Source of the DNA: Brevundimonas sp.
Lineage (GTDB): Bacteria > Pseudomonadota > Alphaproteobacteria > Caulobacterales > Caulobacteraceae
Direction: 5' to 3'
DNA: 64,000 nucleotides
Assembly: GCF_013912005.1 (NCBI RefSeq)
Contig: NZ_JACESB010000001.1
Coordinates: 186,001-250,000, forward strand
A program made the translations under genes and the position numbers. A model generated the notes under the pieces. The model was not told the origin of the DNA. It made no database searches and worked only from the letters and a program-made list of their open reading frames with translations. Below, one piece after another: positions 20,758 through 25,708 of the stretch (position 1 is its first letter; each line of letters starts with the position of its first letter).

Positions 20758-21417
20758 ATGCGTACGATCAGAGCCGCCACCTTCGTCTCGCTGGACGGCG
20801 TGATGCAGGCCCCCGGCGGGCCGGAGGAGGATCCGACCGGCGGCTTCCGCTTCGGCGGCTGGGTGTTCCCGCACTTCGACGAGGCGCTGGGCGGGTTGAT
20901 GGATCGCGCCATGGGCGCGGACTACGATCTGCTGCTGGGCCGCCGGACCTACGAGATTTTCGCCGCGCACTGGCCGCACCAGGAGGACGAGATCGCGCGG
21001 GTGTTCAACAGCGTGAACAAGTACGTGGTCGCCGGACCGGACGCCCCGATGGACTGGGCCCACAGCCACCGGCTGGAGGGCGATCCGGCGGAAGCGGTGC
21101 GGCGGCTGAAGGCGACGCCGGGTCGTGACCTGCTGATCCAGGGCTCCGGCGAGCTGATCCACGCCCTGCTGGCCCACGACCTGATCGACCGACTGACCCT
21201 GCTGACGTTTCCGATCGTGCTCGGCCGCGGCAAGCGGCTGTTCGACGCGGGCTCGCAGCCCCAGGCGTGGCGACTGACCGACAGCGAGGTCACGCCCGCG
21301 GGCGTGGTGGTCGCCGCCTACGAACGGGGCGGCGAGGTCCCGACCGGCTCGTTCGGCGACCAGCATCCCGGCGAGGCGGAACTGGCCCGGCGCGCGCGCT
21401 GGGCCCGCGAGAGCTAG
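20758..21417 (+). CDS. Dihydrofolate reductase-like (RibD C-terminal domain) protein
   Basis: 219 residues with FVSLDGVMQAPGGPEEDPTGGF, LLLGRRTYEIFAAHWP, LIQGSGELIHALLAHDLID and FPIVLGRGKRLFD, the signatures of RibD_C/DHFR-like reductases that bind NADPH. These stand-alone proteins have no settled function. GGGAGG lies 7 nt before the ATG. The last 30 residues after VVVAAYERG are charged and outside the domain. Last gene of the ArsR-SRPBCC operon; its stop shares CTAG with the convergent serine hydrolase. Confidence 0.87.
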   Translation: MRTIRAATFVSLDGVMQAPGGPEEDPTGGFRFGGWVFPHFDEALGGLMDRAMGADYDLLLGRRTYEIFAAHWPHQEDEIARVFNSVNKYVVAGPDAPMDWAHSHRLEGDPAEAVRRLKATPGRDLLIQGSGELIHALLAHDLIDRLTLLTFPIVLGRGKRLFDAGSQPQAWRLTDSEVTPAGVVVAAYERGGEVPTGSFGDQHPGEAELARRARWARES

Positions 21418-22646
21418 CGCGCCACCGCGGTCGGGAAGGAACGGCCGAGCGCCTCGGCCATGGCCTGCTGCGAGAGCAGCAGGACAGCCTCGCGCTGGTG
21501 GAAGTTGTTCGACAGGACGACAACGGTGATCTCCTCGTCCGGCTGCCAGCTCACCAGGTTGCGGAAGCCCGACCAGCTGCCGGTGTGGTAGATCTGGCGG
21601 TCGAGGAAGTCGGGGCGGACCTGCCGGCCCAGCGCCTTCTCGTAGAGGCCGAAGCCCCACAGGCGGCGCGGCCGGCCCCGTTCGTCGGGCGTGTCCTCCG
21701 GCGCGTGGTCCGCGATCATCTGGCGGTAGCTTTCCGGCGACAGCACCCGTCCCGAGTGGAGAGCCCGGGTCCAGACGAACAGGTCGTCGAGGGTCGAGTA
21801 CATGGCCCCGGCCCCGAAGATGATGCTGACGTTGGCGTCCGGCTGGGGCGACGGCGGGCCGCCGAGGTTGGCGTAGCCCATGACCACGTCCGAGGCGCCG
21901 TCGTCGTAGCCGGTGTCGGCCATGCCGAGCGGCTCGTAGAAGGCTTCGCGCAGATAGTCGTGCAGCGGCCGGCCGCTGGCCTTCTCGACCACGGCGCCGA
22001 GCAGGTTGTAGCCGGCGTTGTCGTAGCGGACCTTCGTGCCCGGGGCGAACTGGAGCCGGAACTTCTTCGAGTCCTCGGTGAGTTCTTCCGGGGTCGCCGG
22101 CGTGACGCGCCGCAGCCCCCAGCCGGGCCGCGCCATCAGGTCGGGGATGCCGGAGGTGTGGGCCAGCAGGTGGCGCAGCCGGATCGGCGCCCAGGCGGCC
22201 GGACAGTCGTCGACCCAGCGGCAGACCGGATCCTCGATCGTCAGCACGCCGTCGTCCTGCAGGCGCAGGATGGCGGCAGCGGTGAACTGCTTGCTCACCG
22301 AGGCGAGGCGGAACCGGGAATCGAGCGCCAGCGGACGGCCGGTGGCGCGGTCGGCCATGCCGTGCACCTGGCGGAACAGAATCTCGTCGCCGCGCGCCAC
22401 CAGCACGCCGCCGGTGAAGCGGTCGGCGCCGCCCCAGCGGTCGAGCTGGTCCTTCAGCTGCGGGAGGCGCTCGACCACTACGAGCGGCGGGCGCGGGGGC
22501 GGTGCGGCGGCCACGGCCTCGCCGGCGGGAGCCGGTCGCTGCAGGGTGGCCCAGCCGACTCCGCCGGCGAGGAGCGCGGCGGCGATGGCGAGGAGGCCGA
22601 AGGTCAGCCGGGGGTGGTTTCCGGCGCGGCGGGGAACATGGAACAA
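21414..22646 (-). CDS. Exported serine hydrolase (class C beta-lactamase/esterase fold)
   Basis: 410 residues. One hydrophobic N-terminal segment (about 16-31, LTFGLLAIAAALLAGG) makes it a membrane-anchored or exported protein. The SxxK motif S116-V-S-K119, a YDNAGYN motif (YxN) and the HTGSWSG motif in place of KTG are those of penicillin-binding-protein-like esterases. Substrate unknown: candidates are peptidoglycan-related D-amino-acid peptides or esters. It starts 4 nt after era ends, on the same strand, and may be read through from the era operon. Confidence 0.87.
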   Translation of the reverse strand: MFHVPRRAGNHPRLTFGLLAIAAALLAGGVGWATLQRPAPAGEAVAAAPPPRPPLVVVERLPQLKDQLDRWGGADRFTGGVLVARGDEILFRQVHGMADRATGRPLALDSRFRLASVSKQFTAAAILRLQDDGVLTIEDPVCRWVDDCPAAWAPIRLRHLLAHTSGIPDLMARPGWGLRRVTPATPEELTEDSKKFRLQFAPGTKVRYDNAGYNLLGAVVEKASGRPLHDYLREAFYEPLGMADTGYDDGASDVVMGYANLGGPPSPQPDANVSIIFGAGAMYSTLDDLFVWTRALHSGRVLSPESYRQMIADHAPEDTPDERGRPRRLWGFGLYEKALGRQVRPDFLDRQIYHTGSWSGFRNLVSWQPDEEITVVVLSNNFHQREAVLLLSQQAMAEALGRSFPTAVAR

Positions 22647-23610: not shown

Positions 23611-24323
23611 ATCACGCCTTCACGCTGGAGAAGGGCGGTCGCAGCCGCCTTCTCCGCGTCCTGACGCGAACGCCCCTTCGCGGTCAAGGGCGGATATCCG
23701 GCCACGCTGACCTCGACAGTGAAGGTCGGGGCGTGGTCGGAGCCGGTGCGTTCGACAATCCGGTAGGTCGGCAGCGCCTTGCCGTGGCCCAGCGCCCACT
23801 CCTGGAGGGCCGACTTGGGATTGGTCAGGGCGGGCCGCGCGGGGGCCGTGAGCTCCTTCTCCCAGACCCGGTCGAACACGGCCCGCGCCGCCTCCGTGCC
23901 GCCGTCCAGCCAGACCGCCGCCAGCAACGCCTCCATGGCGTCGCCCAGCACGCTCTCGCGACGCCGGCCGCCCTGTTTCGCCTCGCCCGGCGACAGCCGC
24001 ATGGCGGGCCCGACGCCGAGGCGCTCGGCGACCCGGGCGCAGGCGCTCTTGTCCACGAGGGCGTGCAGGCGGGCCGACATCTCGCCCTCGTCGGCCGCGG
24101 GAAAGTCGCGCAGCAGGCGGTCGGCGACCAGCAGGCCGAGCACCCGGTCGCCGAGGAACTCGAGCCGCTGGTTGTCGAGGAAGGGCCGGCCGCGAGCGTC
24201 GCGGGCCGCGCCCTCCCCCACGCTGGGATGGGTCAGGGCCCGCTCCAGCAGGTCGCGGTCGCGAAACTCGTGGCCCAGGGCGCGAACCAGGGTGGAGACG
24301 GCCTCGGCCCTGCGGTCGGCCAT
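23607..24323 (-). CDS. rnc: Ribonuclease III
   Basis: 238 residues. The nuclease domain has the signature RLEFLGDRVLGLLVAD and the second acidic site in ESVLGDAMEALLAAVWLDGG; a double-stranded-RNA-binding domain follows (about 160-235, ending with GRSRQDAEKAAATALL). It processes rRNA precursors and structured mRNAs. The ATG at 24323 shares one base with the lepB stop (TGATG). Without this start the open frame would run uselessly through lepB in another frame. Confidence 0.97.
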   Translation of the reverse strand: MADRRAEAVSTLVRALGHEFRDRDLLERALTHPSVGEGAARDARGRPFLDNQRLEFLGDRVLGLLVADRLLRDFPAADEGEMSARLHALVDKSACARVAERLGVGPAMRLSPGEAKQGGRRRESVLGDAMEALLAAVWLDGGTEAARAVFDRVWEKELTAPARPALTNPKSALQEWALGHGKALPTYRIVERTGSDHAPTFTVEVSVAGYPPLTAKGRSRQDAEKAAATALLQREGVI

Positions 24324-25648
24324 CAGTGGAGGACGGTGAAGAACCGGCTCGGGCGGACCTTGGTGAACCAGCTGACCGGGTTCCACAGCGAGGCGCCCGG
24401 CTGCCACGAGAACAGGATGACCTCGGCCTTGCCGATCAGGTTCTCGGCCGGGACCAGGCCCACGCCCATCGACTGGTCGACGCGGCTGTCGACCGAGTTG
24501 TCGCGGTTGTCGCCCATCATGAAGTAGTGGCCGGCGGGCACCTCGAACACCGGAGTGTCGTCGAGGTCGCGGCCGGGGCCGAAGTCCTGGATGCGGAAGG
24601 TGCGGCCGCCCGGCAGGGTCTCGTCGGAGGTGACGATCAGCTCGCCGTACATGTTGGTGACGTCCTGGCCGGTGACGGTCACGTTGCGCGCGGCCTCGCC
24701 GTTGATGTGCAGGACGTTGTTGATCATCTGGATGCGGTCGCCGGGCAGGCCGACGACGCGCTTGATGTAGTCGGTCCGGTTGTCGCGCGGCAGCTTGAAG
24801 ACGACGATGTCCCCGCGCTCGGGCTGGCTGCCGAGAATACGGCCCTCGAACACCGGCGGGCTGAACGGGATCGAGTGCTTCGAATAGCCGTAGGTCCACT
24901 TGGACACGACGATGTAGTCGCCCTCGTACAGGTTGGGCTCCATCGAGGCCGACGGAATGGTGAAGGGCTGGAACAGCAGCACGCGCAGCACCAGGGCGAT
25001 CAGCAGGGCGAAGACGATGGTCTTGATGATTTCCCAGCTTTCGCTGCCGCCGCCGCCCTTCTTCGCCTTCTTCCGGCCCTTGCCGCCGCGGGCGTAGACC
25101 GGGGTGGCCTCGACGCTCTCGAAGGGCGCGTCGCCGGAGTCGCTCCACACCGGCTTGCGGTCAGTCGACGTCGCCGCCGCGGCCGCAGCCCCGTGATCGG
25201 CGGCGGGGGCATGACCCTGGTGGTCGTGGTCGACGGCGTGGCCGTGATGGTCCTGGGCCGCCCCGTGGTCGTCGTGGGACGGCGTCGCATGGCCATGATC
25301 GTCATGGGACGCCGCGGCGTGGCCGTGATCGTCATGGGTCGGCGCGTGGGCGTCGTGAGCTGCGCCATGGGCATGGTCGTCGTGGGCAGGCGCGGCGTGA
25401 CCGTGCTCTTCATGACCGGGGGCGGCATGATGCCCGTGATCGTCGTGGGGAGGCGTGGCGTGACCGTGGTCGTCGTGACCGTGGTCGTCGTGGCCGTGGT
25501 CGTCGTGGCCGGCGGCGGCGTGGCCGTGGTCCTCGTGCCCGGTCGCGGCGTGGCCGTGGTCGGCGGGCTGCGGCGCAGCGGCGGCCCCGTGCGCATCATG
25601 CGCCGGATCGTGGCCGTGCTCGTCGTGCGGCTTGTGCTCGTCGCTCAT
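24323..25648 (-). CDS. lepB: Signal peptidase I with long histidine/aspartate-rich N-terminal extension
   Basis: 441 residues, about 150 more than I would expect for this family. Residues 1-152 hold 45 histidines, in imperfect units near HDDHGHAxxx. A basic linker (KGRKKAKKG, 190-197) precedes the only obvious membrane segment (208-226). The catalytic part is intact: Ser235 in IPSASMEPNL, Lys296 in DYIKRVVGLPGD, box E GHYFMMGDNRDNSVDSR (373-389). With one anchor and the positive-inside rule, the extension should face the cytoplasm. No ATG, GTG or TTG with a ribosome site lies between the extension and the anchor, so the long form looks real. A weak promoter (TTGCCG, 15 bp, TATACC) lies in the 60-nt gap to acpS and the acpS end. 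Confidence 0.93.
   Translation of the reverse strand: MSDEHKPHDEHGHDPAHDAHGAAAAPQPADHGHAATGHEDHGHAAAGHDDHGHDDHGHDDHGHATPPHDDHGHHAAPGHEEHGHAAPAHDDHAHGAAHDAHAPTHDDHGHAAASHDDHGHATPSHDDHGAAQDHHGHAVDHDHQGHAPAADHGAAAAAATSTDRKPVWSDSGDAPFESVEATPVYARGGKGRKKAKKGGGGSESWEIIKTIVFALLIALVLRVLLFQPFTIPSASMEPNLYEGDYIVVSKWTYGYSKHSIPFSPPVFEGRILGSQPERGDIVVFKLPRDNRTDYIKRVVGLPGDRIQMINNVLHINGEAARNVTVTGQDVTNMYGELIVTSDETLPGGRTFRIQDFGPGRDLDDTPVFEVPAGHYFMMGDNRDNSVDSRVDQSMGVGLVPAENLIGKAEVILFSWQPGASLWNPVSWFTKVRPSRFFTVLH
25193..25636 (-). repeat. His-rich coding tandem repeat in lepB
   Basis: Degenerate repeat of about 30 bp encoding HDDHGHA plus three small residues, irregular at both ends. On the + strand it shows as recurring cgtcgtgg/ccgtggtcg words. 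The variation between units is at the residue level too, so it is an old, diverged array rather than a recent expansion. Confidence 0.85.
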
Positions 25649-25708
25649 GATGACCTGTCCCCCATGCCGCTGCGCGCGGTCTTCAGCCGCGAAACGGGTA
25701 TAACGTGA

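Follow-up and report, generated by a model that had tools for sequence, protein, structure and literature searches.

What is a stretch of 152 residues with 45 histidines doing at the N terminus of signal peptidase I (LepB), an essential enzyme that is commonly regarded as a housekeeping function, constitutively active? The question is raised by the lepB gene in a 64,000-nucleotide stretch of a Brevundimonas sp. genome (assembly GCF_013912005.1), which is referred to here as the window. An earlier note on this DNA had described the His-rich stretch, and a count in the open reading frame (ORF) gave the same 45 histidines in the first 152 residues. Among the papers listed by the literature searches (titles and abstract starts, with subscription journals thinly covered) none describing a His-rich tail on signal peptidase I was found.

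A complete signal peptidase I with a His/Asp-rich tail

The protein scored 171.5 bits against Pfam Peptidase_S26 (PF10502, cut-off 22.9) and 161.5 bits against NCBIfam TIGR02227 (cut-off 47); with matches above both curated cut-offs, the Ser/Lys pair and a predicted anchor before the catalytic domain it belongs to signal peptidase I. Ser235 and Lys296 are invariant in 35 aligned LepB sequences and both align with PDB chain 1t7d_A. Full-length LepB has one match in the host genome. There is one hydrophobic segment, starting at about residue 207 (Kyte-Doolittle 19-residue mean 2.67), and no 19-residue segment above 1.6 on this scale starts outside residues 196-234. Lysines and arginines accumulate shortly before the core, with 7 in the last 25 residues against 3 in the preceding 174. 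Thus, the description in the earlier note of an otherwise complete LepB with intact Ser235 and Lys296, a basic linker and a single anchor was borne out; both residues lie within motifs that align to solved chains. LepB is predicted to cleave exported preproteins. Since the catalytic domain follows the anchor, and according to the positive-inside rule, the tail is expected on the cytosolic side. A Pfam search found no match of LepB to PF01297 (ZnuA) up to E = 1, and the protein does not belong to the ZnuA type.

The tail includes, besides its 45 His, 33 Ala, 27 Asp, 18 Gly and a single Lys. In a six-frame scan of the window no other stretch of this length came near it, the runner-up having 20 His, and at a background of 2.7% His (six neighbouring ORFs and the LepB core) the binomial chance of at least 45 His in 152 residues is about 10^-33. 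In the DNA of the tail, tandem arrays overlap one another; their periods are 9, 15, 30, 60 and 78 nt. Codons for HDDHGH have six exact matches in the host genome, all of them inside the lepB tail, and the HGHDDHGH-type repeat pattern of ZnuA loops is also found in the tail. From the N terminus onwards, a start motif common in the genus is followed by the repeats, WSDxGDAPF, a basic stretch and the single anchor (Table 1). Judged by its composition, the tail is probably disordered. A real fusion, with the His/Asp repeats within the LepB protein, is supported by the sequence data. Elsewhere in the window, an ORF at 21414-22646 resembles by eye a beta-lactamase-family serine hydrolase.

Table 1 Features of lepB and its leader in the window.
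Feature	Position	Strand	Basis or remark
lepB, signal peptidase I, 441 aa including tail	24323..25648 (stop codon included)	(-)	ORF
Peptidase S26 domain, residues 205-412	24413..25036	(-)	Pfam profile match
Catalytic Lys296	24761..24763	(-)	alignment to solved signal peptidase I chains
Catalytic Ser235	24944..24946	(-)	alignment to solved signal peptidase I chains
Single predicted membrane anchor, residues ~207-225	24974..25030	(-)	Kyte-Doolittle
Basic stretch before membrane anchor, residues 187-199	25052..25090	(-)	
Cytosolic motif WSDSGDAPF	25121..25147	(-)	one match in host genome
His/Asp-rich repeat tail, residues 1-152, 45 His	25193..25648	(-)	exactly codons 1-152 of lepB
N-terminal motif MSDEHKPH	25625..25648	(-)	M[ST][DE][DE]xK family of genus starts
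GGGGGA, likely ribosome-binding region	25658..25663, 10-15 nt before start	(-)	
GTTATA in TTAATCACGTTATACC leader, putative promoter -10-like element	25699..25704	(-)	

N-terminal tails are usual in Brevundimonas and His-rich in part of the genus

In a tool-drawn sample of 101 Brevundimonas genomes, in which near-identical genomes were counted apart, 100 had a lepB match. These 100 loci and those of the named strains below were located with a query (24326-25070, (-)) that was out of frame, and the proteins were then re-read in frame. Two N termini were cut by contig ends and 98 were readable; one of the 98 (L162) had no extension. Readable N-terminal extensions of 31-284 residues were present in 97 of the 101 genomes; some N-terminal tail on LepB is usual in Brevundimonas. 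A WSDxGDA-like motif is found in 78 of the 98 members and the strict form WSDxGDAPF in 69 of 97. At least 10% His was seen in the extensions of 25 of the 98, mostly in one clade, with 14 at 20% or more and 11 at 10-20% (L008 being just below 20%); the N termini of the other 73 are not His-rich. Named strains with His-rich tails are B. lenta (L034, 47 His in 212 residues) and Brevundimonas sp. Root1279 (L033, 43 in 179), and His-poor ones are B. viscosa (L032, 6 in 124), B. vesicularis (L036, 0 in 55), B. intermedia (L038, 1 in 55), B. albigilva (L039, 1 in 37) and B. naejangsanensis (L048, 0 in 65). In one draft genome (G030) lepB (L177) is broken by a frame break in the enzyme part, perhaps an assembly fault.

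At the family level, a search of 21 other genera with an in-frame query gave a lepB match in 147 of 149 genomes. A long His-rich tail was found in none of the 26 genomes outside Brevundimonas whose N termini were read, which cover 19 of the 21 other genera. In near genera (L209, L211, L212, L213, L229) the tails are acidic, about 59-102 residues long and contain 0-6 His. The remaining tails, as far as a start could be chosen, are shorter; that of L228 includes 4 His in fewer than 20 residues. In the comparison across Caulobacterales proposed by the earlier note, a His-rich tail was seen in a quarter of the genus members read and a long one in none of the 26 genomes of other genera. The interpretation in the note is partly supported: the fusion, the cytoplasmic side (as deduced from the topology) and a grammar shared with zinc-binding proteins have support, a general trait does not.

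Median net charge was -28 in the 25 His-rich tails. It came to -25 for 27 long tails that are His-poor and to -3 for 39 short tails; a further six long tails, in which His makes up 5-10%, belong to neither long group. What is shared more widely is an acidic tail whose composition varies, and this makes it unlikely that metal sensing is its sole or ancestral role.

The history of the His-rich state was followed on a tree of the LepB cores, in which the tails were not used (106 rows, 96 from the genus and 10 as outgroup; L162 and L177, of the 98 readable, were left out). The window lepB falls into a clade of 21 rows (support 97/87), 19 of which are His-rich. The two exceptions, L003 and L004, form a pair that is sister to the window lepB and L005; their cores are 92% and 90% identical to that of the window, and their tails, with 6 His in 121 and 124 residues, are without repeats and rich in Glu, Pro and Ala. 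The His-poor state of this pair would most simply be explained by loss. That it occurs next to such similar cores indicates that the His repeats are dispensable. His-rich tails outside the main clade were found in L165 (next larger clade), L176, L152 with L157, and L153, and the tree requires at least six changes of the His-rich state. The tails of L165 and L176 are built of other repeat units, which suggests a separate His enrichment in these two.

These data bear on the view that a long acidic spacer is what is conserved, with His as an interchangeable polar filler and any metal binding incidental. The similar net charge of His-rich and His-poor long tails, the use of Glu, Pro and Ala by the closest sisters where others have His and Asp, and the end motifs common across the genus are all in line with it. 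On the other hand, a near-constant HGHDDHGH with diverged silent sites and the lack of Tyr beside 937 His codons (see below) seem to go beyond what a filler needs, and His was enriched outside the main clade too, with other units in L176 and L165. We regard a tether that works by charge alone as rather unlikely, if still a serious candidate.

The same repeat grammar in other proteins

Codons for the octet HGHDDHGH were found in 16 of 385 alphaproteobacterial genomes. They lie in ZnuA in 7 genomes (L261, L262, L263, L264, L267, L268, L287, all Pfam-confirmed), in NuoL-type antiporter subunits in 5 (L266, L272, L273, L274, L275), in CoxG in 3 (L269, L270, L280), in cytochrome oxidase subunits in 2 (L265, L283) and in a His-rich protein without Pfam match in 1 (L271); three of the 16 genomes count twice across these classes. 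In lepB, the octet was seen solely in the window's genome, in a sample that held just two other members of the genus, both without an octet match. The match to ZnuA is the best pointer to zinc, and the tail possibly binds this metal. Proteins of respiratory complexes carry the octet too, and its presence in NuoL, CoxG, oxidase subunits and the unassigned protein counts against a metal reading; we know of no metal-binding tail role in NuoL or CoxG. In several Alphaproteobacteria (L266, L272, L273, L274, L275, L255) the NuoL-type subunits have an HDDHGH-containing loop.

Within the genus, HDDHGH codons occur in 90 of 131 genomes, and several of the matches listed are far from lepB (e.g. in G072, G009 and G085). 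Three arrays were examined: one is in lepB (G243), one in a protein that is NuoL-like by resemblance (G041) and one in a DUF998 membrane protein (G183). The latter (L254:957-2078) ends in a tail of HxDHGH repeats and has 57 His in its ORF, though the LepB of the same genome (L214) has just 5 His. ZnuA (PF01297) itself was found in 0 of the 101 Brevundimonas genomes by a search that was positive in 11 of 14 controls. In the host genome, neighbouring ORFs (L253:992-2872 and L253:3062-4015, (-)) encode a CobW-type GTPase that contains a HDHHHHDHDHDHGHDHHHH insert and a cation-efflux transporter whose N terminus is His-rich; this is a possible zinc locus.

Could LepB be a mere carrier of a membrane-bound metal store, in which the tail buffers cytosolic zinc, nickel or copper and the peptidase is unaffected? 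Forty-five histidines on an essential enzyme, a genus in which another way of holding zinc could help because ZnuA was not found, and similar repeats on the unrelated DUF998 protein speak for such a store. But ZnuA is absent from His-rich and His-poor members alike, the abundance of LepB is probably modest, and the host genome already has the His-rich CobW and cation-efflux proteins, all of which makes a store distinctly unlikely.

The repeats appear to be under purifying selection

Repeat units within the arrays of nine genes differ at 0.757 (75.7%) of silent and at 0.091 (9.1%) of replacement sites (uncorrected). The pooled pN/pS is 0.12, with values of 0.075-0.235 per gene, the window gene (6 units) being the highest at 0.235. 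These related genes were chosen from the 25 His-rich ones for their clear units, and units were picked at 62% protein identity or more, which lowers pN. The codons give a similar picture. In the variable part of the 25 His-rich tails there are 566 CAC and 371 CAT but 0 Tyr and 7 Arg CGY, and 448 GAC and 166 GAT but 5 Asn; Cys, Met and Tyr are absent from its 3849 residues. When the tails are cut from the first residue to the last His, the counts are 614 CAC, 372 CAT, 2 Tyr, 1 Arg CGY and 10 Asn. As the 25 genes are related, these counts are not independent. Codons that end in T are used more in tails than in cores for Asp, Gly and Ala, whether the group is His-rich or His-poor; for His this holds only in the His-rich group, and we attach no weight to this bias.

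A neutral expansion of repeats in a tolerant tail, seeded from an HDDHGH-like start and kept open by the essential enzyme downstream, would fit the tandem arrays with their periods of 9-78 nt, the wide variation in tail length and the six or more changes of the His-rich state on the tree. A pooled pN/pS of 0.12 and 371 CAT against 0 Tyr are not what is expected without selection, and the choice of units by identity cannot produce silent divergence between units of identical protein. Such wide silent divergence is also hard to square with recent slippage. Neutral slippage, which these figures largely refute, was therefore rejected, and we consider it very improbable. Purifying selection on the His/Asp repeats in the clade is supported by the codon data, and the tail appears to do a job, its protein sequence having been kept while its DNA changed freely. 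Selection seems to act on two traits: on an acidic tail as such and, within this clade, on the His/Asp grammar.

Start of translation and leader

All of this presupposes that the tail is translated. The motif M[ST][DE][DE]xK stands at the start of 76 of the 97 genus extensions and its narrower form MS[DE][DE]xKP at the start of 49 (22 of the 25 His-rich, 27 of the 72 others), and 78 of the 97 genes have GGGG within 20 nt upstream of the start. The leader is visibly conserved in most of the 31 rows compared, and the TTAATCACGTTATACC-like leader before lepB resembles that of many relatives. Beyond residue 1, the only in-frame start codon ahead of the anchor in the window lepB is GTG at codon 167. 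The earlier note had named a late start together with a lack of His-rich relatives as speaking against the fusion; relatives proved to be His-rich and to share the start motif. Low-complexity, GC-rich DNA may stay open by chance and the antisense ORF is open too, but with first residues common in the genus, a conserved leader, the codon counts and the pN/pS of the repeats, translation from GTG 167 and a protein that lacks the repeat are hardly credible and were rejected. A start at residue 1 is well supported by these comparisons.

The leader suggests that lepB has its own promoter downstream of the upstream ORF (acpS by eye). GTTATA is present in 22 of the 25 His-rich leaders and in 14 of the 72 others, and we read this spread as following clades. 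GTTATA was also considered as a Zur box and dropped: no inverted repeat was seen by eye, GCTATA or GATATA stand in its place elsewhere, and its position is -10-like. In the main text of a paper on Zur in Caulobacter the term 'lepb' is absent (PMC4176598).

A possible role of the tail

Taken together, residues 1-152 would form a tail of signal peptidase I that is translated, acidic, on the cytosolic side and probably disordered. In our preferred reading, which is tentative and may well be wrong, the tail is a tether or scaffold whose repeats, in this clade, respond to metal. Its general job would be to act beside the membrane as a flexible tether or scaffold and, by way of short motifs, to keep LepB near a partner such as the Sec machinery. 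In the clade, the repeats could offer many weak binding sites for Zn(II) or a similar metal. The metal level might then change the compactness or the self-association of the tail, and these, in turn, might change the clustering of LepB or the access of substrates. Local buffering of metal would be a by-product. Several results count against this reading: 73 of the 98 N termini in the genus are not His-rich, the sisters L003 and L004 do without the His repeats, the octet is also present in proteins other than ZnuA and HDDHGH at places away from lepB, no partner for the tail motifs was found, and Zur-type regulation of lepB was not shown by the comparison of leaders. Unlikely on present evidence is the more specific proposal of a metal-responsive LepB in the clade, in which cytosolic zinc or a similar metal alters clustering or the docking of WSDxGDAPF at the Sec machinery. 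If it were true, protein export would be linked to the metal status of the cell.

A cytosolic tail that is under selection, has metal-ligand residues by the dozen and includes a short motif common in the genus (WSDxGDA) would offer a handle for controlling protein export from inside the cell. Moreover, repeats that are held while silent sites diverge are well suited to the question of what selection favours in tails of biased composition.

Comparison with known systems

Like other bacterial signal peptidases I (PF10502, TIGR02227), the protein has a complete S26 domain, the Ser/Lys pair and one anchor before the domain. Unlike them, it has about 200 residues before the core, 152 of which are His/Asp-rich; in alphaproteobacterial lepB genes from outside the family there are mostly about 10-40 residues where a start could be picked, and some have more. 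With the His-rich loop of ZnuA (PF01297), as found in 7 genomes, the tail shares identical HGHDDHGH octets. ZnuA loops sit inside a periplasmic binding protein. The LepB repeats, in contrast, are interspersed with Ala/Pro spacers and form a tail at the cytosolic N terminus, and ZnuA was found in none of the sampled genomes of this genus. For the ZnuA loop, the titles cited in one paper point to a possible regulatory role and to flexibility that is modulated by zinc (PMC3872050).

Two other membrane proteins are comparable. The N-terminal domain of PcoB from Caulobacter, another member of the Caulobacterales, is reported to be disordered and rich in His and Met and to serve copper resistance (PMC12509749). 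Like the LepB tail, which is probably disordered as well, it is a His-containing N-terminal domain of a membrane protein; it differs in that PcoB is an outer membrane barrel, with the domain on the periplasmic side, copper as the metal and Met in addition to His (PMC12509749), whereas the variable part of the 25 His-rich LepB tails is free of Met. PacL1 of mycobacteria is a one-anchor membrane protein with a disordered, Glu/Ala-rich cytosolic part that binds metal and is a proposed scaffold; unlike LepB it has a single C-terminal metal motif, a zinc pump as partner and no peptidase (PMC9374683). With no homology claimed, PacL1 and PcoB show that membrane proteins can have disordered parts, acidic or His-bearing, which act in ways such as those considered here for the tail of LepB.
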